NCBI RefSeq assembly: GCF_004193775.1
Contig: NC_041011.1
Location: forward strand, 41,299,167-41,363,166
Source: Glycine soja
Lineage: Eukaryota > Streptophyta > Magnoliopsida > Fabales > Fabaceae
DNA: 64,000 nucleotides
Direction: 5' to 3'
The position numbers and the translations under genes are program-made. Below are positions 25,954 through 47,432 of this stretch, in pieces. Numbering within the stretch: the stretch's first letter is position 1; every line of letters starts with the position of its first letter. Under the pieces are notes generated by a model. That model searched no databases. It saw nothing but the letters and a program-made list of their open reading frames with translations, and was not told the DNA's origin.

Positions 25954-28282
25954 AGCTAACAAAGGGGCGTCAATGAATAATAATATTCTTTGAAATGATG
26001 AGTAGGTGACGGCGGAAGCAGAGCAAGGGGGACCCACCTTGCGTTGCCTCGCCGTGAAGGAATGATGGGGTTAGGGTGGATAATTAATGAAATAATGGAG
26101 GGAAAGTGTGGAACATGCATGGAAAAGGGAGGGGATAGTGTGTTCTAATATTTGGGGGGTTTGAGTTGTGACTTTGAGATTCCACCGTCCATTTGTAACT
26201 GTCAGCAACGACATTGTAGGAAGAAGGTGTGCAATATTTAGTAGGCTATGTTGTGTGTCGTTGTGCTTCATTATTGAAGGGTACAGCTACATTCGGGTGA
26301 AAATCTTTGGGATGTACTAACAATAATTAATTAATAGGGTTTCCGTTATTCCACTCGTGCCTAATGGTGCTTCGACTGATTTAGTGTTGTTATCGCTTAA
26401 GCACAAGATGTCTCTAACTATGTCTACACGTGCATGATGATGCAATAGAAATTGCATGCACGTAGGGAAATATATACCCGTCGAACAATAAAGGAAGGAA
26501 ACATACCCCATTTGGCGCATGGAATCATTGTAGCAAGCACTTTTGATTTCTCTTTTTTAGATCAAAAGGAGTCCACAAGGCCAGGCTTGAACATGTCAAA
26601 TTCTATGGAATTGGACCTTAATATTTTCGCAAATTCCATGTTCAGCACATGGCATGTAAAATTAGAAAGAAAAAAAAAAACAGAACATGTCATTCGATTC
26701 TCTGTTCATGCAATCAGATCCAATTGTTAGTTCTATACATTAAAGATTAAGCTTAAATTCTATCTTCAATCTTTTATTTATACTTTTCATGAAAATAATT
26801 AAGTTCAAATGATTTACCTAAAATTATAATTAAATTACTTTTAACTCTCTATCACTACCAATTACCATACATTTTTTTGGATTCAAAACCATACATAGTT
26901 TATATCGTCCGAAAAGTCAATTATTATAGTATGAAATTAAAACCCCTATTCTCTAATGTTGTTTAATTCAATTTTTTTAAAAAAATTATGATGGAAAAAA
27001 AATAATTGTGGGTTGCCAAATATATAGTTTATCCCTTTAAGTCTTATTTTTCTATAGCTTTCCCTCTCGGAATTTAGTTTCTTATTATATCCATTTTCAC
27101 ACATACACACACAAAAAAGAAAAAAAACAGTGTCACAGTATTATATCGTAAATTATGTTTATAGGAAAAAAAAAGTGTCACATTCTATAATAACTTATAT
27201 ACTTATTTATTTTGTAATGTTCTTTCAGCTAGCTATCAATTTTAAAATAAGTCTATATATGTTACAGTAATTATGCATAAACATCTCTTTTTTATACAAA
27301 CATTTTATTTCATATTAGTTCTTCTCTCTATATTTTTTTAATTGTCACATTATATATCCTATATTTTTTCATTTTTTTCCGTTTCTTTAGACATTGATAT
27401 TACTGTACTTTATATTTAAGCTCATCATTAGGTAATTTGTTAATAGCTACTCCTGTTATACTGGATCAAGCATTTTCAAAACTGCATAGTACTGTTGAAG
27501 CTTAGGTATGTTATTTTGTTTCTTTCATATTCAATGTGAGGTAAAGATTAAGGTCTTTTCCGGTGACATATTTCGTTGGATAAGATTTTAACCAATGAAA
27601 TCATTTAGTTTATTTTATAAAAAAAATGCTATAAAATAATGTCCACAAATAATAAATGAATTGAAGTATATATTCGATTGATACTATAGCGTTGAATCTC
27701 ATCAATGAAGAGAATCCCAATCCTAGCGGGAAATGATAGATTGTCACTCCTTCCCCCATATTATATGGAAATGGAATGCTAAATATGGCTCAGGCTCGCC
27801 AGTTTTGGATTCAAAGAATATCGCAAATTGTAACAAATCATTTACAACCATTTACTATTCTCACTCCCTGTCGTAACTCTCATCCATGAACGTTATCGTT
27901 ACTCGTCACAGGGGGCAAAACAAAAAAAAACTTCCAAAATCCGAATTCAGAACAAAAGAGAAAACCATAGTAACTCCTCGTAGTACCAAAAAGATAAAAA
28001 TAATTAAAATCATAAAACTCAACCCTTTTTTTCCTCTTGCCTGGTTTGGTTCGTTCCCACCAATCCAGGTAGGTTGTTTCACACCTGCGTGAACGATCGA
28101 TGCTTCTGATTTCAACCATAGCTTGTTGTTAATTGCCGGCGTACAGGAAAACGGAAAGGAAAAACCCCTTTTTTTAATTCATTCATTCTCGTCTCGTAAC
28201 TCGTCACATCACACCCATAATCTTTTCCTGTACGCCCCATCGTGTGTGATCTTCTTTTACACTTTTCCATTCATTTTCAACC
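25954..28282. other. Intergenic between divergent DUF1685 and receptor-kinase genes
   Basis: The region between two divergently transcribed genes contains both promoters. 26040-26260 is the probable leader/promoter side of DUF1685. 27850-28282 is less AT-rich and looks like the receptor-kinase leader, with pyrimidine runs. No other gene was recognised. Confidence 0.5.
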
Positions 28283-30871
28283 ATGTACATCCACGTGTGT
28301 CTTTGGTTGGTGTTATGTTTCCCTGTTTTCTTAAACGCCGTACCCCCCGACAAAGGTGGCGGCGATTCCTTGATGTTGGGGTGTGGATTAGGCGAAGGTG
28401 GAGGCAAAGATAGCGACGGAAGACAATGGACGCCCGACAACAAATACCTCTCTGGTGGCAATTCCGTCACTTCCAAAGCCTCTTTCCAAGACCCTTCGCT
28501 TTTGTCCGAGGTTCCGTACATGACATCTCGTGTTTTCACCTCCGAAGCAACCTACAAGTTCCCCGTTAAACTCGACAAACGTTACTGGCTCAGGCTCCAT
28601 TTCTACCCTGCAGTTTACAACACCTTCGACCCCGTCAATTCATATTTCTCCGTCACAGCAAACAGCGTTACGCTTCTTTCCAATTTCAGCGCCTCCATCA
28701 CATGCCAAGCTCTCTCCCAAGCCTACCTCGACAGAGAGTATTCCCTCGCGCCTTTGGATTCGGACACTCTCTCCCTTACCTTCAAACCCTCTGGGAAACA
28801 GAATGGTGCTTTCGCTTTTGTTAATGGGATTCAACTTATTGAAATGCCGGAGTTGTTTGATTCGGCTCCTATGGTGGGGTACTCCGACCAAACCATGGAT
28901 ACAAAAAGTTTTCATTTTCAGACAATGTTCAGATTAAATGTTGGTGGACAATTTATATCTCCGAAACAAGATTCTGGTCTAAGCAGAATGTGGTACGATG
29001 ATACACCTTATTTATACGGTGCTGCCACTGGTGTCACCAACCACGCTACCAAGGATGTCAAAATTGACTACAAAACCATGCCACAGAACATTGCTCCTCC
29101 TATTGTGTACTCTACTTCAAGATCCATGGGGAACAATAAGGACGTCAACATGGGGTTCAATCTCACGTGGATCTTCCATGTTGATCCGGGTTCGATGTAC
29201 CTTACACGATTGCATTTTTGTGACTATTACTATTCCAAGGTGAATGAAATTGTTTTCAAAATCTTCATCAACAATCAAACAGCGGAGGCTGAAGCTGATG
29301 TGATTGGGTGGACAGGAGGTAAAGGAGTGGCAACTTATAAAGATTATGTGATATATGTGAAAGATGAGGCAGGTGATGATCAACTCTGGCTTGCTTTGCA
29401 CCCTGCACCTGAAACGGAGCCAGAATTTTATGATTCGTTACTTAATGGGGTGGAGGTGTTCAAGCTCAATGACACGGATTTATCTGGTCCCAATCCTCAA
29501 CCTTCGGAGATGTTGATTGAACATGAGGAGCATGCAAAGACTTTCCAAAACAAACATGGTAGTAATAAGACTTTTGTTATTGGCAGTGCTGCAGGGGGTG
29601 CTGCAGGTTTTGCCTTAATGGCTGCAATAATTGTTGTTGTTCAACACCAAAAGAAAAAGAGAGCTCCGGGATCGTACAGCACATCAAGCTGGCTACCTAT
29701 TTATGGGAATACGCACACCGCAGGCACCAAAACCACAGGGTCAGGGAAGAGTGTTGGCAGTGCCAACATATCAGCCATGGCTCAAGGATTGTGTCGCTAT
29801 TTCTCCTTGCAAGAGATGAAGGAAGCGACCAAGAATTTCGACGAGTCCAATGTGATAGGGGTAGGAGGGTTTGGAAAGGTTTACAAGGGTGTTATTGATA
29901 ATGGGTTCAAAGTGGCAATCAAAAGATCGAACCCGCAATCAGAACAAGGAGTGAACGAGTTCCAGACTGAGATTGAGATGTTGTCCAAGTTGAGACACAA
30001 GCATCTGGTGTCCTTGATAGGTTTTTGCGAGGAGGATGATGAGATGTGTTTGGTTTATGACTACATGGCACTTGGCACCATGAGGGAACACCTTTACAAG
30101 GGAAACAAGCCATTAGACACACTATCTTGGAAGCAAAGGTTGGAGATTTGCATTGGAGCTGCAAGAGGCCTTCACTACCTTCACACGGGTGCAAAGTACA
30201 CCATCATTCATAGAGATGTCAAAACAACCAACATTCTCCTTGATGAAAATTGGGTTGCCAAGGTTTCAGATTTTGGACTTTCCAAAACGGGTCCAAACAT
30301 GAACCAAGGTCATGTTAGTACTGTGGTGAAGGGTAGCTTTGGATACTTGGATCCTGAATATTTTAGGAGGCAACAGTTGACTGAGAAATCGGATGTGTAC
30401 TCATTTGGGGTTGTTTTGTTTGAGGCACTTTGTTCAAGGCCTGCTCTCAATCCTAGCCTTGCAAAGGAACAGGTAAGCCTTGCGGAATGGGCATTGTACA
30501 ACAAAAGAAGAGGAACACTTGAGGACATCATTGACCCCAACATCAAAGGACAGATCAACCCTGAAAGCTTGAAAAAGTTTGCTGATGCAGCTGAGAAGTG
30601 TGTGTCTGATCTTGGTTTCGAACGCCCCTCCATGAATGATCTCTTGTGGAATCTCGAATTTGCTCTCAATGTGCAACAAAACCCCGATGGTAAAACTCAC
30701 GAACCGCGTCTTGATGAAAGTGAGTTTGAAGAAGTAAACTTGGAAAACAATGACATGGCAGCTCACTACAAAAACCTTAGCCTTGGAAGTGAGCATGACC
30801 TTAGCCACGAGTCCAGTAGTGATAACCATGCTTCCATCTTCTCGCAAATTGCCAATCCAAAAGGACGATGA
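28283..30871 (+). CDS. CrRLK1L receptor-like kinase, ANXUR/FERONIA clade
   Basis: Intronless, 862 residues, as usual for this family. It has a signal peptide (about 1-19), tandem malectin-like extracellular domains (about 30-400), a transmembrane segment at about 431-453 followed by KKKR, and a Ser/Thr kinase at about 520-800. Kinase motifs seen: glycine loop VGGFGKV (527-533), VAIK with Lys547, HRDVKTTNILL with Asp645, DFG at 663, and GSFGYLDPEYFRRQQL in the activation segment. The tail ends FSQIANPKGR, a signature shared with ANXUR1/2. The kinase section is closest by eye to ANXUR1/2. Those act with FERONIA-like partners as RALF-peptide receptors that keep pollen tubes intact. Family members bind cell-wall components through the malectin-like domains. 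All catalytic residues are intact. The exact orthologue (ANX1, ANX2 or another clade member) cannot be fixed without a tree. Confidence 0.95.
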   Translation: MYIHVCLWLVLCFPVFLNAVPPDKGGGDSLMLGCGLGEGGGKDSDGRQWTPDNKYLSGGNSVTSKASFQDPSLLSEVPYMTSRVFTSEATYKFPVKLDKRYWLRLHFYPAVYNTFDPVNSYFSVTANSVTLLSNFSASITCQALSQAYLDREYSLAPLDSDTLSLTFKPSGKQNGAFAFVNGIQLIEMPELFDSAPMVGYSDQTMDTKSFHFQTMFRLNVGGQFISPKQDSGLSRMWYDDTPYLYGAATGVTNHATKDVKIDYKTMPQNIAPPIVYSTSRSMGNNKDVNMGFNLTWIFHVDPGSMYLTRLHFCDYYYSKVNEIVFKIFINNQTAEAEADVIGWTGGKGVATYKDYVIYVKDEAGDDQLWLALHPAPETEPEFYDSLLNGVEVFKLNDTDLSGPNPQPSEMLIEHEEHAKTFQNKHGSNKTFVIGSAAGGAAGFALMAAIIVVVQHQKKKRAPGSYSTSSWLPIYGNTHTAGTKTTGSGKSVGSANISAMAQGLCRYFSLQEMKEATKNFDESNVIGVGGFGKVYKGVIDNGFKVAIKRSNPQSEQGVNEFQTEIEMLSKLRHKHLVSLIGFCEEDDEMCLVYDYMALGTMREHLYKGNKPLDTLSWKQRLEICIGAARGLHYLHTGAKYTIIHRDVKTTNILLDENWVAKVSDFGLSKTGPNMNQGHVSTVVKGSFGYLDPEYFRRQQLTEKSDVYSFGVVLFEALCSRPALNPSLAKEQVSLAEWALYNKRRGTLEDIIDPNIKGQINPESLKKFADAAEKCVSDLGFERPSMNDLLWNLEFALNVQQNPDGKTHEPRLDESEFEEVNLENNDMAAHYKNLSLGSEHDLSHESSSDNHASIFSQIANPKGR

Positions 30872-34330: not shown

Positions 34331-34340
34331 TGTATATGCA
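34331..34340 (+). repeat. Left target-site duplication of the MULE
   Basis: TGTATATGCA directly precedes the left terminal inverted repeat. The same ten bases directly follow the right one at 44369-44378. Confidence 0.93.
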
Positions 34341-34434
34341 GGTAAATTTCCCAGACTAGGGTTCATTTAGAAATTATTTCCCAGACTAGGGTTCTTTTTA
34401 AACAAATACCAGAGGGGTGCTGTTTTTTACGTAG
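34341..34434 (+). repeat. Left terminal inverted repeat of the MULE
   Basis: The 94 bp pair with 44275-44368 inverted. Differences are few and clustered around 34371-34393. The repeat itself contains TTTCCCAGACTAGGGTTC twice (34347 and 34379), so the terminal motif is doubled. Similarity continues patchily for another 150-200 bp, as in the shared CACGTGGC and GCTGGTTTGACCAGC blocks. Confidence 0.93.
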
Positions 34435-34443
34435 CAGCAGTGC

Positions 34444-34705
34444 ATGGCGCCAGTGGAGATGGCGCCTTCAACAGGGAAGAGCCACGTGGCATGTCGCCAC
34501 TGTGACTGGCGACAAAGGACTGCATATCGCAGGTCCTATTGGCGCATCCAGAGGTGCATGGAAGCGCTGGTTTGACCAGCGACTTCAGCACCTGCACTTC
34601 TGCAAACGTAGGCTGCAGCAGCTGCAGCTCTGCGGTCGTAGCTGGAAGGCGCCACTCGAGGTGGCGATTTGGGTGAGAGGGAGGCGCCAGTGATGTTGGC
34701 GTTTT
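34444..34705. promoter_or_regulatory. Left subterminal region dense in TGGCG/CGCCA motifs
   Basis: Ten copies of TGGCG or its complement CGCCA lie in about 260 bp, together with the palindrome GCGCTGGTTTGACCAGCG at about 34563. The region is markedly GC-richer than the rest of the element. In MULEs and other DNA transposons, subterminal repeats are usual binding sites for element-encoded proteins. That role here is inference. Confidence 0.6.
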
Positions 34706-34904
34706 CAGCTTCAGTGGGATTTAAAAGAAGGTGGTTGAAAGGGAGGCTCCAGTTCACGGTTGATTGTAAAATTTGTGTGTTGAAGGTGAAAAAGAAGGTG
34801 GTTGCTGTTGAGAGAGAGGTAGCTGGTGGTTGCTTGAGTGTTGAGAGTGGTGCTGATCAGTTTGTTGTCTTCTTCCATTTTATAAAAGCTTGTAAGTTAT
34901 ATAT

Positions 34905-35050
34905 TCAATATATTTTATATGTTTTATTTATGTACATGTTTATATTTTGATAAATGAATAATTTTAGGTAGTATAAGTCAATATATTTTATATGTTTTAT
35001 TTATGTACATGTTTATATTTTGATAAATGAATAATTTTAGGTAGTATAAG
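34905..35050 (+). repeat. 73-bp tandem duplication in the MULE leader
   Basis: Two copies (34905-34977 and 34978-35050) appear identical. Each begins TCAATATATTTTATATG and ends TTTTAGGTAGTATAAG. A degenerate third partial copy (GATAAATAAATAGTTTTAGG) follows near 35110. Confidence 0.95.
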
Positions 35051-35976
35051 ATAATAATTTTGTATAGGGCTCTTTGTATTGTTAATGTTATATATGCTAG
35101 ATTATATTTTGATAAATAAATAGTTTTAGGTAGTATAAGATTATAGTTTGAATTGTTAATGTTATATGGTAGATTAGATTTAGGTTTATATGATAAATTA
35201 GGAATACTTTTACATACTCTAAGTTATTAATTTTATATGGTAGATTAGGAATATTTTTAATTTTGATATGGTAGATTAGGAATATTTTTAATTTTGATAT
35301 GATAGATTAAGTTTAGTTGAAATTTTCCTTAAAATAGATTAGAAATAATTATAGATTAGCTTTAGTTTAAATGTTGTATATGGTAGATTACATTTAATTT
35401 AAATATTTAATATCATAGATTAAGAAAAATTGTATGTACGGGAAATTATTAATTTTAAATTAGGTTAGAATGAAATATTTTATATTACGTTAGTTTTAGT
35501 AATTATTAGACAAAATATGTTATGTTTAAATTATAGTAGTTTTACGTATTTAAAATTATTGATTTTGTATATTAAATTATATTACTCGTAATTATTTAAA
35601 GTCATTAATTTTGTATATGGTAAATTATTCATAGATTAAGAATAATTTTATGTAGTATAAATTATTAATTTTAAATTAGGTTAGAATTTAATTTTTTATA
35701 TTACGTTAGTTTTAGTTATTAATTTTTAGTTTTTTATATTACGTTAGTTAATAGTCGAAAATTTAATTATTAATTTTGTATATATATTATTTTAATTTTT
35801 AGTCGAAAATATAAATATTATATTATATATTGAAATTTATATTTGTATGTAATTTAATTTATTTATAGAATATATATGAATTAGGTTATTTGTATAATAT
35901 ATTTTGTTATTGAAATTAAAAAAATATAATTTATTAATTATGTAAAATTGTCTTTGGATGTAATTTAATTTATTTT

Positions 35977-36052
35977 GTATAATACATTTAAATTTTCGTG
36001 ATTGTATAATACATTTAAATTTCCGTGATTGTATAATACATTTAAATTTTCC
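35977..36052 (+). repeat. 27-bp tandem repeat, three copies
   Basis: GTATAATACATTTAAATTTT with CGTGATT following starts at 35977, 36004 and 36031. The last copy is partial, and the second has one C for T change. Confidence 0.9.
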
Positions 36053-36158
36053 TTATTTTAATTAAGTTTTTTTGTAAATATACTTAATTTGTGTATGTAT
36101 AATTAATGTATAAATTTTATCGTTAATGAATTGTTTTATATTTTATTTTGTAGGATCA

Positions 36159-38424
36159 ATGGCATCTTCGTCGTCATGCTCATCGAGCATACAAACTAGG
36201 TCTGGTCCAGTTGATGGTGACGTCTTGTGGATGCAACCCAAGCATGTTTCAGAACATGTTTGGAATGGGGAACCAGATAGAAAATTACACATTAGACGAG
36301 CAGTGCCGACATATCAAGGTGAAGAACAAATACCAGAGGAAATTGTTCCTCTACTTCGGCAATGTGGGTTTTATTGGATCATGAAGATGGGATACCTAAA
36401 GATAAATGCGGCCTTAATTAGTGCGTTCATTGAAAGATGGAGGCCCGAAACCCACACGTTTCACCTGAGATGCGGAGAGGCTACCATTACTCTCCAAGAT
36501 GTGTCAATTTTATTAGGTCTGCGTACTGACGGGGCACCATTAATTGGTTCGACAAATCTTGATTGGGCCAATTTGTGTGAAGAATTATTAGGAGTCAGAC
36601 CACAGGAAGGCGAAATTGAAGGCAGTGTGGTCAAATTAAGTTGGCTGGCTCACCATTTTTCTCACATAAATATTGATGAGGGTAACGTTGAACAATTACA
36701 AAGGTTTACCCGTGCGTGGATTCTTCGATTCATAGGAGGTGTCCTCTTTGTTAACAAAAGTAGTAGCAGAGTTTCCTTAAGGTACCTACAATTTTTACGT
36801 GACTTTGAACAGTGCAGCACGTATGCGTGGGGACCTGCCGTGCTTGCGTATTTATATAGAGAGATGTACAGCGCCACCGATTACAAAGTTAAATCAATCG
36901 GAGGTATGTGCATCTTAATCCAAATGTGGGCATGGGAACGATGCACCACTTTAGCTCCAAAGAGGACACCTCCCGTCATAGAAAACAAACCACTTGGACA
37001 CAGGTTTGTCGTTAAAAAAATTACATTTGAATTGAAAATATTTAATGATGGAACATGTTGATAATGATGATTTCATTTTTATTGTAGGTGGCTACGACGT
37101 GGAAATCAGCATATCGGCAATGATGATCTTAGAGTTTTCCGTCGCAAATTGGATCTGATGAAACGACATGAGGTAAGAAGATTGTAATGTAATGGTTAAA
37201 TTATATTTTAATATGTTATGTTTGACTGAAAATTGACAAGTTTGTTGTTATATGCAGTTTGTCTGGGAGCCATACACACCAACTGTGATGGCAGCGCTGC
37301 CTCAAATTTGTGTGGTTGGAAGTGTAGTCTGGTTCGCGGTGGTGCCACTGATTTGTTTTCATGTTGTTGAGTGGCACCAACCCGATAGGGTTTTACGACA
37401 ATATGGATTGCAACAACCTATTCCCGGGTGTCCTTCGCAACCGCAGAATCTCCATGGCATAACGCTCAAAGGCAAACAAGATGAGAATTGGTTCCACCTG
37501 TTGGCCCCAATCATTAGTCAGTGGAACAATGCAGCGCAGTTTAGGGTCGACGTTTATCCTCGACAGCAGGGCTTACTAGGTTTTAACTCGGACTATATGG
37601 TGTGGTATAGGCGTAAAACAAAGATGTTTGTCGACCCAAACAATGCAAACACAGCTGCATTGGTATTTATTTGTTTTTCAATGTTTAACTTCTAATAATT
37701 TTCTTAAGCGTGAGCATTAATTTGTTGACGCTAATAATTGTAGGGTGAAGTTGTGGAGACTTTACAGTATATGGTGTCACCACAAGGGAGGAACACATGG
37801 ACAGTTGATGATCTCGTGCCTTACGTGGATAAGTTGGCGATTATATCAGAAGAGCAAGAGAGAGTCACTGAGCCAGTGTCACATGGTCCAGCATCAGAGC
37901 GTGAATTCCCAGCACCAGAGTTTCACATTCTTCAGTCAAGTGTTGAAACTCGGGGGTTAGGCAGACGAAGGGAGCCTGTTGAAGCGGAGCAATATTCGCA
38001 ACAAATGATGGAGCGTGGTCATGGAATGTATTACACGCCAGCAACATTTTCCGAATATCCTTCACAGATGTATCAGTATCCCTTTGAAGGTCATCACACT
38101 GATACTTCTGCGAGCGAACATTCGTTCGGTGGTGTTGCGGAAACACAAGCTCATTTTTCATGGCCCACTATGACTCCTTCGCAGCAGCACGATGCCCCCA
38201 TGGCAACACCTAACGCCCCATTTGCTCCGCAATGGAATGTACCCGGAGTAATACCTGATATGGGCGACTTATTAGGTGTTGATTTGCGTCAGGAGTTTTC
38301 TGCTGAGGCTGAGCAAGCAGAAGCGGGGAGACAACGCGGCAGAAGAAATCCTGATCGTCAAGCACGAAGATGGGATCGACCGTGTGGCACATCCTCACGA
38401 CATCGCGGACACCATAATGACTGA
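36159..38424 (+). CDS. Plant mobile domain (PMD/MAIN-like) protein carried by the MULE
   Basis: Four exons, 36159-37003, 37088-37172, 37258-37662 and 37744-38424, give an uninterrupted 671 residues with GT-AG borders. The ATG at 36159 follows an acceptor-like TTTTGTAG. Residues about 60-390 match the plant mobile domain: VPLLRQCGFYWIMKMGYLKI, FIERWRPETHTFHLRCGEAT, ITLQDVSILLGLRTDGAPL, LSWLAHHF, and later WEPYTPTVMAALPQIC and LICFHVVEWHQPDRVLRQYG. PMD proteins include Arabidopsis MAIN and MAIL1, which act with the phosphatase-like PP7L in transposon silencing and meristem maintenance. The domain is also widespread in transposons. The C-terminal 200 residues are low-complexity and end in a basic RGRRNPDRQARRWDR-type tail. 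Its place opposite the transposase suggests it is a standard gene of this element family and not a random capture. Confidence 0.9.
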
Positions 38425-38617
38425 TTTTTATGTCTCTGTGTAAATTTTTTGTTGTTTGTAAGACATTTGATTTTGACAATTAATCAATCGCATGTCATTT
38501 ATTATGCCTTACTAATGTATAGAGTTTATGTGGCGCATAAAAGTATAATAATAAACAAAGTATAAAAATAAAAGTAAAGTACACAAACGAAAAAGTAAGT
38601 AGTTTTACTAATGTATA

Positions 38618-39850
38618 GGACTTAGGGGATTGGATTAGGGGTTACGGTTTAAGGGTTACTGTTTTGGATTAGGGTTTTGGGGTAAGGTTAGGGTAAGGAC
38701 TTAGGGGTTTTCATTAGGTGTTATGGTTAAGGGTGAAAGGGTTTTTAACCAGTTAGGACAAAAATATCAATCCTTAAACTAAAGTAGAATTGAATGCACT
38801 CAAATTTAACTATATATGAATTGACTTAGATTTGTAAATAATTAAAACAAAAAAATGTAAATGCAATCAGATTATTTTTGTATATCATTTTATTCTTAAA
38901 TATACTCAACTAAAAAGGGTGTGTTATGAAATGTTTGGATTTAGGGTTGAGGGTAAACTAATTTTTAACAAGAGTGTTAAGATTTTGATTACATGATACA
39001 AAACAAATAATATTGAAGTACACTTTCATTTTAACCTCGAATGATTTTAGAATCATTTTTTTTTAGGGATAAGAAACATCAATTTTTGATTATGGGTTAG
39101 TGTTAGTGTTAGGGTTAGTTGTTAGGGTTTAGGGTTAGTGTTTTGGGTTTTGGGGTAGGGTTAAGACTTAGGATTGGATTATGGGTTAGGGATGGAGTTA
39201 GGGTTTTTGGTCTATTGTTTGGATTAGGGGTTAGGGTTGGGGCTAAGCCTTAGGGGTTGAAGGGTTACTGTTTTGGAGTAGGGGTTATTGATTTGGGGTG
39301 GGTTAGGGTTTTGGGTTAGGGCTTAGGGGTTTAAGGGTTAGTGTTATGAGTTAGGGTTAGTGTTAAGGGTTAGGGTGAGTGTTATGAGTTACGGTGAGTG
39401 TTATGAGTTAGGGTTAGTGTTATGAGTTACAGTGAGTGTTATGAGTTAGGGTTAGTGTTATGGGTTAAATTTAGGGTTTATTAGTTAGGGTTAGGGGTTA
39501 GGGGTTAGTGTTATGAGTTACGGTGAGTGTTATGAGTTAGGGTTAGTGTTATGGGTTAAATTTAGGGTTTATTAGTTAGGGTTAGGGGTTAGGGGTTAGT
39601 GTTATGAGTTAGGGTTAGTGTTATGGGTTAAGTTTAGGGTTTATTAGTTAGGGTTATGGGTTAGGGGTTAGTGTTATGGGTTAATTTTAGGGTTTATTAG
39701 TTAGGGGTAGGGGTTATGGGTTAGTGTTATGAGTTAGGGTTAGTGTTATGAGTTAGGGTGAGTGTTATGGGTTAAATTTAGGGTTTATTAGTTAGGGTTA
39801 GGGGTTAGGGGTTAGTGTTATGAGTTAGGGTTAGTGTTATGGGTTAGTGG
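38618..39850 (+). repeat. Telomere-like degenerate repeat array between the two MULE genes
   Basis: Variants of TTAGGG / GGGTTAG are found throughout, sparse at 38618-38740 and dense at 39095-39850. In the dense part they form higher-order units built from GTTATGAGTTAGGGTTAGTG, TTATGGGTTAAATTTAGGG and TTTATTAGTTAGGGTTAGG, with period roughly 70-95 bp. G-richness is all on the plus strand. The array is not a simple (TTTAGGG)n telomere. It lies between the stop codons of the convergent PMD and transposase genes. Confidence 0.9.
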
Positions 39851-39939
39851 CTTAAAGTACCGAATTCATTGAACCCCAAAAATTCAATACATTGAACATA
39901 ACGTAAACAAATACAAGTCACTCGACTAACATACATAAA

Positions 39940-42717
39940 TCAATGATTTGAACAACTCCCATGCTCAGATTGCATTGGACAGCGACGCCTGTTATAGCCT
40001 TCGGCTCCACATCTACTGCATTTTGTTCGGTGCTCAGATGGTTCGACCCAATCCATCTCATTTCTTATCCTTGTTGATTTTGGCCGACCTTTCGCACGAA
40101 CTGTAGTTGGGTCAGGGATAAGTGTCCATGCGTCATCAGAAGGAGGAATAGCCGCTTCATTCCCAAGAGGCCACCATTGTGCGGAGTAAGCTTTTAAGAT
40201 GTGCTCGTTTGTATAAACAACATCTATATATTGGTAGTAGTTCATGCTCACGTAACCACAAGCTGCAATAATGTGTGAACATGGATAGTGAAGCGCAGAA
40301 TACCTTCCGCATTGACAATGACGACCATTCAAGTTTACTGCCCACTTTTGTCCGCCACGTTGCGTTATAGGGTTGAAGCTCTCCTCTACTTCAAATCGTG
40401 TGGAGTGGATATCATACACGCGAACGATGTGCGTACAAGCTTGTTCTTGATTTTTCCTTAGTTCTTTAACAAGCTTTGAACAATATACTTGGCCTTCATT
40501 TAACTGTCTTTGCGCTTGGCGGCCACGCTCAACAAAGTATTTTCGACACCTACTGTACGTTGATTTGACCAATGCTGTTATGGGAATGTTTCGACAATCC
40601 TTCAAAACCTTATTGATACATTCTGAAAGGTTGGTTGTCATGTGGCCATATCGACGTCCTTCTCTATCATAAGCCATCGTCCATTTTTCCTTTGAAATTC
40701 GATCAACCCATGTGGCTATGGCTGGACTCAGTTCACGAAATTTTTGTAAATTCTGATAAAAAATGTGCTTGCAAGGAGTGTAGGCTGCATAAAAATAGTT
40801 ATGAATAACAATTTTAAGTATATAGGAAACTTAAATAAACGTCACCATCAAATAGGAAATCTTACCCAATTTTTTCAACATTTCTTTTTGTTTGGCATTA
40901 TTGAATTTCCGATTGAAGTTGCTTGCTATGTGTCGCACGCAGTAGACATGATAACCGTGGGGAGGTTGCCAACCAAGGGCTTCGTTAGCGACAGCGGACT
41001 TTATACTCGCGTGTCGATCAGATATCAGACAAATACCATTTTGATCTGTGACGTGTTCACGCAAGTGTGCCAAAAACCATGACCACGCTGTCAACGTCTC
41101 ACCTTCAACCACCGCGAATGCTAGAGGAAGGACACCACCATTTCCATCTTGTGATGTGGCCATTAAGAGGGTCCCACGGTATTTGCCGTACAAATGTGTG
41201 CCATCAACTTGTATGATTGGCTTACAGTACTTGAAAGCTTCTTTACATTGCCCAAAAGTCCAAAAAACTCTATGAAACTGACGGTGTTCGCGACTAACCG
41301 TATTCCCAACGATAAAATCATCATGTAGTACTTGAAAATATGATCCAGGAGAATGATTTTGCATGTGTCTTAGCCACGACGAAAGTTTCGCATATGACTC
41401 ATCCCAATCGCCATATTCAATTGCAATGGCTTTCTGTTTCGCCAACCACGCTTTTTTGTACGACACCTTGTACGCAAATTCACTGTTAATCCTCTCTTGA
41501 ATCAAAGAAATTTTTATTGATGGGTCTTCTCTGATCATGCCTGTGAATAACATTACAAAATTTAAATGACAATTAACAATAAATGAACATAATATGAACA
41601 TAAAATACGTACCTACTACACAAGTGACAATTAAATCTGAATCAAGTTTCTCGTGATCTTGTGTCATGCTCATATTCAGACATGTGTGTGGTCCACCCCA
41701 TTGTGTGACTTTCCACGTATCTGTTTTTTTAGATAAAATTGCCCTCATATAGAAAGGGCAAGGACACTCTGCATTCTTATTCAAGCAACAAACCACATAC
41801 TTGTTCGATTTGCTTTCAACAACTTTGAAACTTTGATGCACCTTCATAACATATTGTTTGACTGCATTTTTGACCGCATCTTTACTATCAAATTCCATGC
41901 CAACATATAATTCTTGGCCAACATTAAAGGTCGACGGCATCTCCAAACCGCAAATGTCCTCCTCATCAGGATAACTCCAGTTGATATTGTTATAATGAAA
42001 AGCATCATTCCAAAATGGATTTTCAATTCGTTGTGCACCTAACAGTTCAAAATAAAAAATCAAATCATACTTATTTACCATTAAATACAATTGTCATCAA
42101 ATAATAAATGTATTGTCAAATTTTTTTATACAGCAAATTATACCTTCTGCTGGGTGAACAATTCTTACTGGTTGAGGAATGTCGGTGACTTCATCGTCTG
42201 TTTCAGATATACCGTCAACACTGTCATCTTCGTCTACAGACTCTTCAACGTATGAGTTAGACACAAGATAATCATCATCATCATCATCGTCTTCGTCAAT
42301 ATGTAAATTGCTCATATTTGTTGCCGGTTGTGTCTCATCATTAGATAAATAATTTCCACATGATGTAAGCGAATTTGCAGAATGAAACATTGAACCACCA
42401 ACAACATCCTTTTCTATGTACAATTCCAAAACTGACATTTGGTCTTGTTGTTTAAAACTTTCTAACATCGTTTCAACGTCTTCGTCATCACAAATTTGCA
42501 AGGCAATATATTTTCCTGACACTAAAAATCTACAGCTGATAGCTGAAATAATTTCATTATTTTGTAACTTTACCTTATCTCCAATTTTTTTCTTCAAGGC
42601 ATTGAAACTAATTCCACGTTTAATCTGAATCGCTTTTTTACTTCCTTCAAATATTACACCATCATTATCTTCATATACACTTCCATTGAAATACAACACT
42701 GTTATAACCGAATTCAT
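39940..42717 (-). CDS. MULE transposase (MURA/MuDR family)
   Basis: Four exons on the minus strand, 42717-42144, 42038-41613, 41540-40866 and 40784-39940, give an open frame of 839 residues. The N-terminal about 110 residues look like the PB1-like head of plant MULE transposases (ISFNALKKKIGDKV, CDDEDVETMLESFKQ). A Glu/Asp-rich linker with DEDDDDDDD follows, and then the MuDR DNA-binding region (VGMEFDSKDAVKNAVKQYVM, CPCPFYMRA). The catalytic core shows IIQVDGTHLYGKYRGTLLMA (D446) and LISDRHASIKSA (D508), with E576 in FRELSPAIATW as the likely third acidic residue and the conserved CVRHIASNF between. The SWIM finger is CQCGRYSALHYPCSH (C715, C717, C727, H729). The C-terminal knuckle is CSRCGAEGYNRRRC, with Tyr822 where His is expected. 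Exon borders are hand-placed but every phase fits. Confidence 0.93.
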
Positions 42718-42724
42718 CCTGTAC

Positions 42725-43712
42725 CTACAAAAAAAATATTTTAACACGTCAAATAAATTACAAGATAGTCATTTTTAACACGAAAACACTAGATTTCTCT
42801 TTTAAAGTGTAATCCCAAAATATCTCTTTATTGGAACTTTACATTCAATTTCTCTTTTAAAATTTTTTAATTAACTTCAAATTACTTTCATGAGACACAC
42901 TTAAAAAAATGAACAATTTCAAGATACTCATTTTTAACACAAAATTAAATAATTCATGAACGAAGTTAGTATTATAAATAATTAATCTTAACATTAATAG
43001 CTTTAACATGGAAAAAACTAATTACAAAATTGCTAAAAATATAATAAAATATTTAACACTTTCAAGTTGAACGCTTATAAATTTTTAACACACCAAAAAC
43101 CAACTTAATCTAATTAAAAAATACTACAACTTCATCTTAAAAAAAATCATACTCAAAATATTTACTTTAAATAAATATAATCTACAAATTTTTTTTATTC
43201 AAAGTTCAAACATTCATCAATTTTTAACATACTAACAAATTTTGAATCTAGAACACATTTATATGACATATCCGATGGGACGATGCAAGAATTTAGTTAT
43301 GGATCAAATAATTCATGTACACGTTTAATCAACATCTATGATTATTTTGGAAAAAAAAAGTTATAACCAAATAAATTTATTAACAAAGATGTAAATAAAT
43401 TTATTTCACGAAAATTGTTCACGGAAGAAAAAATAGAAGCAATTAAACGCGATTTCTGTACAAATTATCAACACCAACCTAATCTAATTAAAAAATTATT
43501 ACAAATTTCATATTCAAAATATTTTTATTTTCACTCAAAAAATTATCTTCAAATTAATATTGTTACACAATTTTTCTTTTATTTTTGACATTTAAACACA
43601 CATTTAAACAAGCATATCAAATATAAACGTTAATTTAATTTTAAAATAAATAAATACTATATACAAAAATTAAGTTACAACCTAACAAAATAACTTAAAA
43701 AAAATTTCATAC
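42725..43712 (-). other. Putative 5'-UTR intron of the MULE transposase gene
   Basis: On the minus strand a donor (TGTG|GTATGAAA at 43712) and a pyrimidine-rich acceptor (TTTTTTTTGTAG at 42725) bracket about 990 bp of very AT-rich, ORF-free DNA just before the transposase ATG. This mirrors the leader of the PMD gene and would place the transcription start near the right TIR. Inferred from splice consensus only. Confidence 0.45.
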
Positions 43713-43775
43713 CACACAGTTTTTTGAACAGCTAAATCCACCAAAACAAAACAGAAACAATCTCAAAGGCACGAC

Positions 43776-43985
43776 TAATAGCTTTAAAATGAAACCTTGG
43801 CAGTTGCAAGAAAAGGAAAATGAAGCAGTTTGCAAGAAAAATGAAATGAAGCAGTTGCAAGAATAAGCACAAAACACGGATAATAGCTTTAAAATGAAAC
43901 CTCTGGCAATTGCAAGAAAAGGAAAATGAAGTAGTTTGCAAGAAAAATGAAATGAACCAGTTGCAGGAATAAGCACAAAACGAAA
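43776..43985 (-). repeat. 105-bp tandem duplication near the right end of the MULE
   Basis: Copies start at 43776 and 43881 with TAATAGCTTTAAAATGAAAC. They run through GCAAGAAAAGGAAAATGAAG to GAATAAGCACAAAAC and differ at a handful of bases. They would fall in the transposase 5' UTR upstream of the putative intron. Confidence 0.93.
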
Positions 43986-44010
43986 TATTTGAAGACCCTA
44001 AATCGCCAAG

Positions 44011-44235
44011 GCAGCTGGCGTTTTCACCCTAAATCGCCAAAGGCCCTGGCGTTTTCCCTGCTGCACTGCACCTTCACTAGACCTGCAAAAGCTGCACCTG
44101 CTACGCATAGGGAAGCGCTGGTTTGACCAGCGACTCTACCCTGCATGGCCAAAGCGCCATTGCAGGTGGCGACATCACTGTTGTCGCCAGTGGCAGAGGC
44201 GACACAGCCACGTGTCGCGTGCCTGAGTGTGGCGC
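44011..44235. promoter_or_regulatory. Right subterminal region dense in TGGCG/CGCCA motifs
   Basis: Eight copies of the same pentamer lie in about 225 bp. The same palindrome GCGCTGGTTTGACCAGCG (about 44114) and a CCACGTGTCGCG block are also present. This mirrors the left side but is only patchily alignable with it. Confidence 0.6.
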
Positions 44236-44274
44236 TGTTCATGCTAGCGATTTGCATGAATAATCCCACTGTTC

Positions 44275-44368
44275 CTACGTAAAAAACAGCACCCCTCTGG
44301 TATTTGTTTAAAAAGAGCCCTAGTCTGAAAAATATTTTCTAAATGAACCCTAGTCTGGGAAATTTGCC
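44275..44368 (-). repeat. Right terminal inverted repeat of the MULE
   Basis: Read on the minus strand it starts GGCAAATTTCCCAGACTAGG and runs to GTGCTGTTTTTTACGTAG, matching the left end. Confidence 0.93.
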
Positions 44369-44378
44369 TGTATATGCA
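44369..44378 (+). repeat. Right target-site duplication of the MULE
   Basis: TGTATATGCA, identical to 34331-34340. Confidence 0.93.
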
Positions 44379-46775: not shown

Positions 46776-47432
46776 ATGTCTACCGCAGCGCAACCCAAGG
46801 CCAAGAAAACGGCGTCGTCCAAGAAGCCCCTCTCCCACCCTCCCTTCGCCGTGGTACTTTCCCAAAATGCTCTCCTTCAAAATCAATTCTCTTAGTTTAT
46901 TTCTTTTCCAATTGTATTTAATGTGATTATTCTGTAGATGATAGCAGAGGCGATTGCGAGTCTGAAAGAGAGAACCGGTTCGAGCCAATACGCGATAACC
47001 AAATACATCGAAGGGAAGCACAAGGAGTTGCCTGCAACCTACAAGAAGCTTGTCCTCGTTCATCTCAAGAAATCTGTTGCTGCTGGCAAGCTTGTTAAGG
47101 TGAAAAACTCCTTTAAGCTCGCACCGACTAAGCCTGCTCCGGTTAAGGCCGCTGCTCCCAAAAAGCCAACCAAAGCTGCCACTAAGCCCGCTTCCAAGCC
47201 CAAAGCTGCTACTCCTAAGAAAAAGGCTGTTGCCAAGCCCAAGTCCAAAGCTGCGGCCACCACTGCCAAGCCCAAGTCTAAGCCCGCTAAGGTCGCGGCC
47301 AAGAAGGTCGCTGCTAAGCCAGCTAAGAAGAAGACACCCGTAAAGGCCGTGAAGAAGCCCAAGAGTGTCGTGAAGAAACCTAAGAGCGTGAAATCACCAG
47401 CGAAGAAGACTAAGGCTAAGACTAAGAAGTGA
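46776..47432 (+). CDS. Linker histone H1
   Basis: Two exons, 46776-46853 and 46938-47432, give 190 residues. The intron falls inside the globular domain after SHPPFAV, as in other plant H1 genes. The globular winged-helix domain (about residues 20-88) reads MIAEAIASLKERTGSSQYAI, TKYIEGKHKELPATYKKLVL and HLKKSVAAGKLVKVKNSFKL. The tail is Lys/Ala/Pro-rich with KPKS, TPKKK and KSPAKK motifs. H1 binds linker DNA at the nucleosome exit and compacts chromatin in the nucleus. The N-terminal tail is short (about 18 residues), so the protein is smaller than Arabidopsis H1.1/H1.2 and nearer in size to short or inducible H1 forms. Which subtype it is cannot be decided here. It is convergent with the WVD2-like gene downstream. 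Confidence 0.96.

Follow-up and report, generated by a model that had tools for sequence, protein, structure and literature searches.

A Two-Gene Mutator-Like Element of Glycine soja with a Plant Mobile Domain Gene and Subterminal Arrays of a 17-bp Dyad

The window, i.e., the whole stretch of DNA that was analysed, comprises 64,000 nucleotides of Glycine soja (contig NC_041011.1, positions 41,299,167 to 41,363,166, assembly GCF_004193775.1). At window positions 34341–44368 it holds a complete Mutator-like element (MULE) with two open, convergent genes, a plant mobile domain (PMD) gene on the plus strand and a MURA transposase gene on the minus strand. The element probably moved recently and belongs to a large two-gene Glycine MULE family that by its anatomy fits the MUDR clade; in this family, PMD would be a standing helper and an element-encoded dimer would act on arrays of a 17-bp dyad, CGCCA-N7-TGGCG, at both ends. 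The pairing of PMD with MURA in the family and the ratios of nonsynonymous to synonymous substitutions (dN/dS) show PMD to be a lasting component of the element, kept by selection, rather than a passenger acquired by capture.

Family Copies and Pairing of the Two Genes

The 1.01-Gb assembly containing the window was searched with the left terminal inverted repeat (TIR), which was found at 41 places. Nine further TIR-to-TIR elements and an adjacent 12.5-kb stretch on C17 were fetched from these places. All ten TIR-to-TIR elements, including that of the window, have perfect target site duplications, nine of 9–10 bp and one in an uninformative poly-C run; with nine such further copies, the element is not a chance pattern. 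The window copy and the eight large copies carry both genes in convergent orientation (9/9), and both frames are open in four of these nine. The remaining TIR-to-TIR copy, 2.7 kb (2707 bp) long, is gene-less. The nearest sister is about 99.8% identical to the window copy in both genes, both of them open, and this identity together with the perfect duplications in ten elements (one in poly-C) speaks for the youth of the insertions. At G000:C2:49363404-49375935, 28 bp separate a full two-gene copy from a gene-less copy of 2.7 kb whose ends are the same.

Copies reached by other routes have the same gene content. Both genes are present in all three elements whose TIRs have diverged. On C1, where the first 50 listed dyads fall into 13 clusters, five stretches of 5–10 kb were chosen because dyad clusters bound them, and four of the five have both genes. 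TIR similarity was undetected at E 0.1 in two of the C1 stretches, yet the outermost bases GGCAAATTT are common. Twelve places were taken from 40 listed MURA exon matches (586 candidates at first look), and 11 of them have a convergent PMD near the expected distance. PMD and MURA are thus both present and convergent in 27 of the 31 gene-bearing copies examined, and PMD retains its introns. Also, 22 of 240 fetched proteins are gene models that join the sense strand of one gene with the antisense of its partner, a product expected of convergent genes. In P0235, a gene model of Glycine soja, another PMD type (named MAIN-LIKE 1) is joined to the MURA of this element family, either as an artefact or as a fusion. 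The earlier note on this window, which had singled out the pairing of MURA and PMD and proposed a search for further TIR copies with both genes, is borne out by the eight large two-gene copies found besides the window; most of the gene-bearing copies examined keep PMD, and the pairing is a family trait.

Selection was judged mainly from four diverged, mostly complete copies (C20b, C16, C19, and C1a), each with 1–3 stops per gene and C16 without 30% of MURA. The dN/dS of PMD against these copies is 0.24, 0.21, 0.17, and 0.20, respectively, which indicates purifying selection, and that of MURA is 0.32, 0.26, 0.19, and 0.17. The analysis leans on these four because values near or above 0.5, seen in both genes of C9 and C1b, in PMD of C1c, and in MURA of C1d and C20a, were read as exons forced across deletions. 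With the C9 PMD pair limited to its aligned part, dN/dS is 0.07. Values of C11 (0.38, 0.18), C5 (0.32, 0.27), and C1d PMD (0.29) are consistent with purifying selection, and ill-fitting values were obtained for C12 PMD (0.85–0.90, about 26 changes), C17a MURA (1.38, 6 changes), and MURA of C2b and C2a (0.64 and 0.96, with 10 and 9 changes, respectively). Distances of PMD and MURA correlate; r was 0.93 for 9 copies, a value reached in 3 of 5000 permutations, and 0.82 for 16 copies, reached in 1 of 5000.

Subterminal Dyad Array

The stretch between each TIR and the neighbouring gene is rich in G+C (58% and 55%) and holds the gapped palindrome CGCCA-N7-TGGCG. In the pattern scan, the left stretch has strict dyads at 34448–34464, 34495–34511, 34650–34666, and 34685–34701, and a relaxed dyad, CGCTG-N7-CAGCG, at 34565–34581. 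The right stretch has strict dyads at 44004–44020, 44035–44051, and 44155–44171, and relaxed ones at 44116–44132, 44185–44201, and 44233–44249. All seven strict sites of the window are in these two stretches and all have a gap of 7, when gaps of 4–10 were allowed; none of 2000 shuffles of the subterminal stretches reached seven strict sites (mean 0.011). A relaxed form of the pattern matches 11 sites in the window, all of them inside the element.

In the ten TIR-to-TIR elements, all 57 strict sites are at most 405 bp from an end. Further ends, with TIR identity of 74–91%, have at least one strict dyad in 17 of 19 cases. When GCCA-k-TGGC was counted over the 19 diverged ends and the C20b ends, 44 occurrences had k=7, no other k from 0 to 30 had more than 7, and 32 different strict 17-mers occur across the same ends; the half-sites and the gap are therefore conserved, and the spacer is free. 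In aligned young ends, 56 of 990 half-site cells are changed versus 86 of 693 spacer cells, a comparison biased towards half-sites by the choice of sites on the window copy, for which the diverged ends are the better test. The dyad is common to subfamilies whose TIRs align no further than the first bases.

Genome-wide, 4868 sites have gap 7, 177 have gap 6, and 210 have gap 8; reversed-pattern controls gave 81, 67, and 171 (81 being the control for gap 7). The first 50 listed sites, all on C1, are divided into 38 clustered and 12 single ones. Dyads are present at either end of the gene-less copies of 2707, 1441, and 837 bp, whose duplications are all perfect; the 1441- and 837-bp copies (L051, L052) were picked by their dyads, so that only the 2707-bp copy, with ends the same as those of its two-gene neighbour, is unbiased. 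No report of such an array was found among the open-access MULE papers listed, subscription papers and Repbase being outside the scope, and the terms PMD, plant mobile, palindrom, subterminal, and second gene are all absent from the main text of a barley MULE paper (PMC9168764). The dyad array appears to be a new trait on an otherwise known kind of element.

Anatomy of the Window Copy

The target site duplication TGTATATGCA stands at 34331–34340 and 44369–44378, and its two copies are identical in 10 of 10 positions. The TIRs are 94 bp long, the left at 34341–34434 on the plus strand and the right at 44275–44368 on the minus strand, with 94.7% identity. A repeat finder reported an inverted repeat of 116 nt at 91%, since the partly palindromic duplication adds to the TIRs. 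Start codons lie about 1.8 kb (PMD) and about 1.65 kb (MURA) inside the element, a correction to the picture of genes that each start from a TIR, although transcription may begin near the TIRs. The duplication falls within the 9–11 bp of the MULE superfamily, to which the TIRs, the MULE transposase domain with the usual acidic residues, and the SWIM finger also assign the element. A Pack-MULE would have a captured fragment and no transposase, but two whole open genes are found here. No match was obtained in an Rfam scan of the element at gathering scores. Relatives were looked for in viral and prokaryote contigs and none were found, as expected for a plant.

The PMD gene (plus strand) has four coding exons at 36159–37003, 37088–37172, 37258–37662, and 37744–38424, the last with a basic tail at its end, separated by GT-AG introns and encoding 671 amino acids with no stop inside. 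A putative intron of the 5′ untranslated region at 34892–36153 was deduced from GT/AG signals. Exon borders of both genes were deduced from splice signals and frame. The protein matches PF10536 with E 1e-86 over profile positions 1–347 of 347, i.e., the full domain. Among the 120 relatives listed of 588 in the protein search, every one is named Glycine max or G. soja. The search for a related solved structure gave none; two matches at E 0.77 on an enzyme were read as chance.

The MURA gene (minus strand) has four coding exons and encodes 839 amino acids without internal stops. PF10551, PF03108, and PF04434 were identified in the protein (Pfam scan, E 0.001). Exon 1 is at 42144–42717, and exon 2, at 41613–42038, encodes the DBD_Tnp_Mut domain. 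Exon 3, at 40866–41540, encodes the MULE domain with the VDG and SDR motifs, and exon 4, at 39940–40784, the LSE motif, the SWIM finger C.C..C.H, and a C-terminal zinc knuckle with Tyr for His. VDG, SDR, and LSE are presumably the catalytic residues of MURA, LSE with the catalytic E. The relatives of MURA (120 listed of 338) are named Glycine, except one from Cajanus cajan (63% identity).

The earlier note had described the element as complete and intact. The exact 10-bp duplication, the 94-bp TIRs, and the convergent multi-exon genes without internal stops confirm that it is complete. Both frames are open, but "intact" needs qualifying, because the zinc knuckle of the window MURA reads GYN where all 11 other readable copies read GHN; among the fetched proteins with the motif, this position is H in 59, R in 1, and N in 1.

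Two 93-bp direct repeats (88%) occupy 43783–43981, in the presumed 5′ region of MURA, and a degenerate telomere-like GGGTTAG minisatellite with periods of 19, 72, 91, and 216 lies at 39094–39847 between the 3′ ends of the two genes. Outside the element, a malectin-like receptor kinase has a long open frame (28250–30871) about 3.5 kb to the left, and a linker histone H1-type coding frame (46938–47432) is about 2.6 kb to the right.

Proposed Working and Alternative Explanations

According to its domains and the target duplications, MURA would cut and move the element. A dimer, most likely encoded by the element (MURA or PMD), would bind the 17-bp dyads, as the fixed gap and free spacer suggest. 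Seated on the arrays at both ends, this dimer could label the DNA as that of the element, for the transposase to recognise. PMD, either by itself or together with MURA, could protect the adjacent promoters from silencing by keeping them open. The role of PMD as an anti-silencing helper is deduced from its host relatives and the proposals of earlier authors. The position of the array beside the TIRs, also found in a copy without genes, would fit a function in mobility, and its position beside the gene starts would fit one in expression. A narrower version, in which CGCCA-N7-TGGCG is the target of the element's own PMD, a candidate dimeric sequence-specific factor that marks and opens the ends, is a tentative proposal and rather unlikely.

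Several observations weigh against the proposed working. Two copies in the C17 stretch have MURA and a right TIR without a left TIR or PMD, one of the dyad-bounded C1 stretches (L053) has PMD without MURA, and one of the 12 MURA exon places (L054) has no PMD within the 2.6 kb examined. Two of the 19 diverged ends are without a strict dyad. Eight of the 12 single listed sites, e.g., at G000:C1 6266233, 8255781, and 10410551, have a common CATTGGG-type spacer (or its complement), and a separate repeat with its own single dyad seems to add to the 4868 sites. By itself, the dyad pattern would favour PMD as the putative binder no more than MURA or a host factor. An AlphaFold model of PMD (P0001, 20-row alignment) had a mean predicted local distance difference test score (pLDDT) of 30; this is too low for a DNA-binding fold to be sought in the model. 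The changed zinc ligand may impair the MURA protein of the window copy. As to age, the earlier note had taken unrelated ages of PMD and transposase as a sign of one-off capture; the distances of the two genes rise together, but the synonymous divergence to C16, C19, and C1a is larger in PMD (0.48, 0.51, and 0.57) than in MURA (0.18, 0.16, and 0.40). Because PMD exceeds MURA for identical copy pairs, segment exchange between lineages or unequal rates is likely, and the genes did not age simply as one block.

A real possibility, although short of an even chance, is that the dyads are MURA binding sites required in cis for transposition, and that PMD has a separate task, e.g., chromatin counter-silencing through host PMD/PP7L-type partners. 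MURA has a DNA-binding domain, the dyads outlast TIR similarity, and the half-sites are common to subfamilies, unlike VANC targets. Furthermore, long MULE TIRs are said to contain transposase binding sites and promoters (stated in a passage of PMC3310237), and the 2.7-kb gene-less copy, found by its TIRs, retains dyads at both ends. This copy, however, may be too young for dyad loss, as its ends are the same as those of the two-gene element beside it, and the dyads are outside the TIR, between it and the gene starts.

It is doubtful that PMD counters silencing in the manner of VANC, acting only on noncoding repeats of its own element that evolve rapidly. The superfamily, the accessory gene, and the noncoding site array are alike, and relatives of PMD have roles in silencing and in the activation of genes in Arabidopsis. 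The dyad is nevertheless palindromic and common to subfamilies; VANC targets, by contrast, are tandem motifs of one orientation and differ from one related element to another, and the second gene is PF10536 and not DUF1985. As to its origin, PMD may have been captured in ancient times, before the radiation of the family.

That the dyads are promoter elements bound by a host transcription factor is improbable. Both arrays are upstream of the two genes, as such elements would be, but dyads also occur in gene-less copies, gap 7 is genome-wide 23 and 27 times commoner than a gap one base wider or closer, respectively, and the listed C1 sites are mostly clustered (38 of 50).

MULEs pick up host sequence, and two captures of PMD-C by MULEs were argued in a section of Ikeda 2017 (PMC5418596), but for this family a one-off host gene capture (transduplication) in a single lineage is very improbable and largely refuted, as both genes occur in 27/31 gene-bearing copies, PMD has introns and is under purifying selection, and PMD, often antisense, was recorded across the MUDR and neighbouring groups in the relevant part of PMC6446971.

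PMD proteins were called enigmatic in a 2021 review, and a 2023 paper says that the interaction of the host PMD complex with chromatin is not known. In a high-copy, recently mobile family with a selected PMD and a crisp 17-bp site at both ends, the function of PMD becomes a binding question, and the retention of the PMD gene and the dyad together in many copies gives a handle on the function of the protein. If the dyad is truly the PMD target, one soybean genome would contain several thousand of its sites, and the function of PMD could be tested directly. According to a 2020 statement, eudicots hold mainly genic PMD-C; the family would qualify this statement if its PMD belongs to the PMD-C clade.

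Comparison with Known Systems

Maize MuDR has a convergent two-gene layout (mudrA and mudrB), a MURA transposase, and TIRs. The window element has the same layout, transposase, and TIRs, but its second gene is a PF10536 PMD, set beside mudrB by description.

The system VANDAL21/VANC21 is described with degenerate TIRs and a VANC protein with DUF1985 and DUF287 (Hosaka 2017, PMC5735166; Sasaki 2023, PMC10398659). The VANC motif YAGTATTAY forms an array in one orientation, and the targets vary considerably between related elements (PMC5735166, PMC10398659). VANDAL21 resembles the window element as a MULE with an accessory gene and a repeated short noncoding site. Unlike those of VANDAL elements, the TIRs of the window element are neither degenerate nor missing, and no VANC gene (DUF1985) was detected in the Pfam scan of both element proteins at E 0.001.

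The host proteins MAIN/MAIL1 with PP7L have the PMD domain in common with the element, but are encoded by host genes, as described in Nicolau 2020 (PMC7156037) and Life Sci Alliance 2023 (PMC9899485). The DOWN motif suggested there for host PMD targets, CATGCAGTTT in MORC1, differs from the dyad of the window element. The 8-base core of this motif, TGCAGTTT, has a single occurrence in the element, at one end of a PMD intron, and an array of the DOWN motif was looked for in the element and none was found. MULE-borne PMD-C was described in grasses and Amborella, with fusions to the transposase and a proposed anti-silencing role, in passages of Ikeda 2017 (PMC5418596). PMD is on a MULE in both cases; it is fused with the transposase there, and here it is a separate convergent gene in a eudicot.

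By anatomy, the element fits the MUDR group of Dupeyron 2019 (PMC6446971). According to that paper, PMD, sometimes or often antisense, accompanies most elements of the MUDR, MUDRAVI2, MDR, and monocot groups; half of VANDAL has PMD and/or a DUF. For most MUDR-group members PMD is in antisense, and soybean is among the hosts. The element had been put forward in the earlier note as a candidate for an undescribed working unit, a view that is not supported, as MULEs with antisense PMD were already recorded there, soybean included. The table rows consulted on MUDR group 50 show no dyad array, while the likeness of the window element to this group, judged by anatomy, extends to the 9–10-bp duplication, a TIR within 30–320 bp, the SWIM transposase, the soybean host, and PMD antisense to the transposase.

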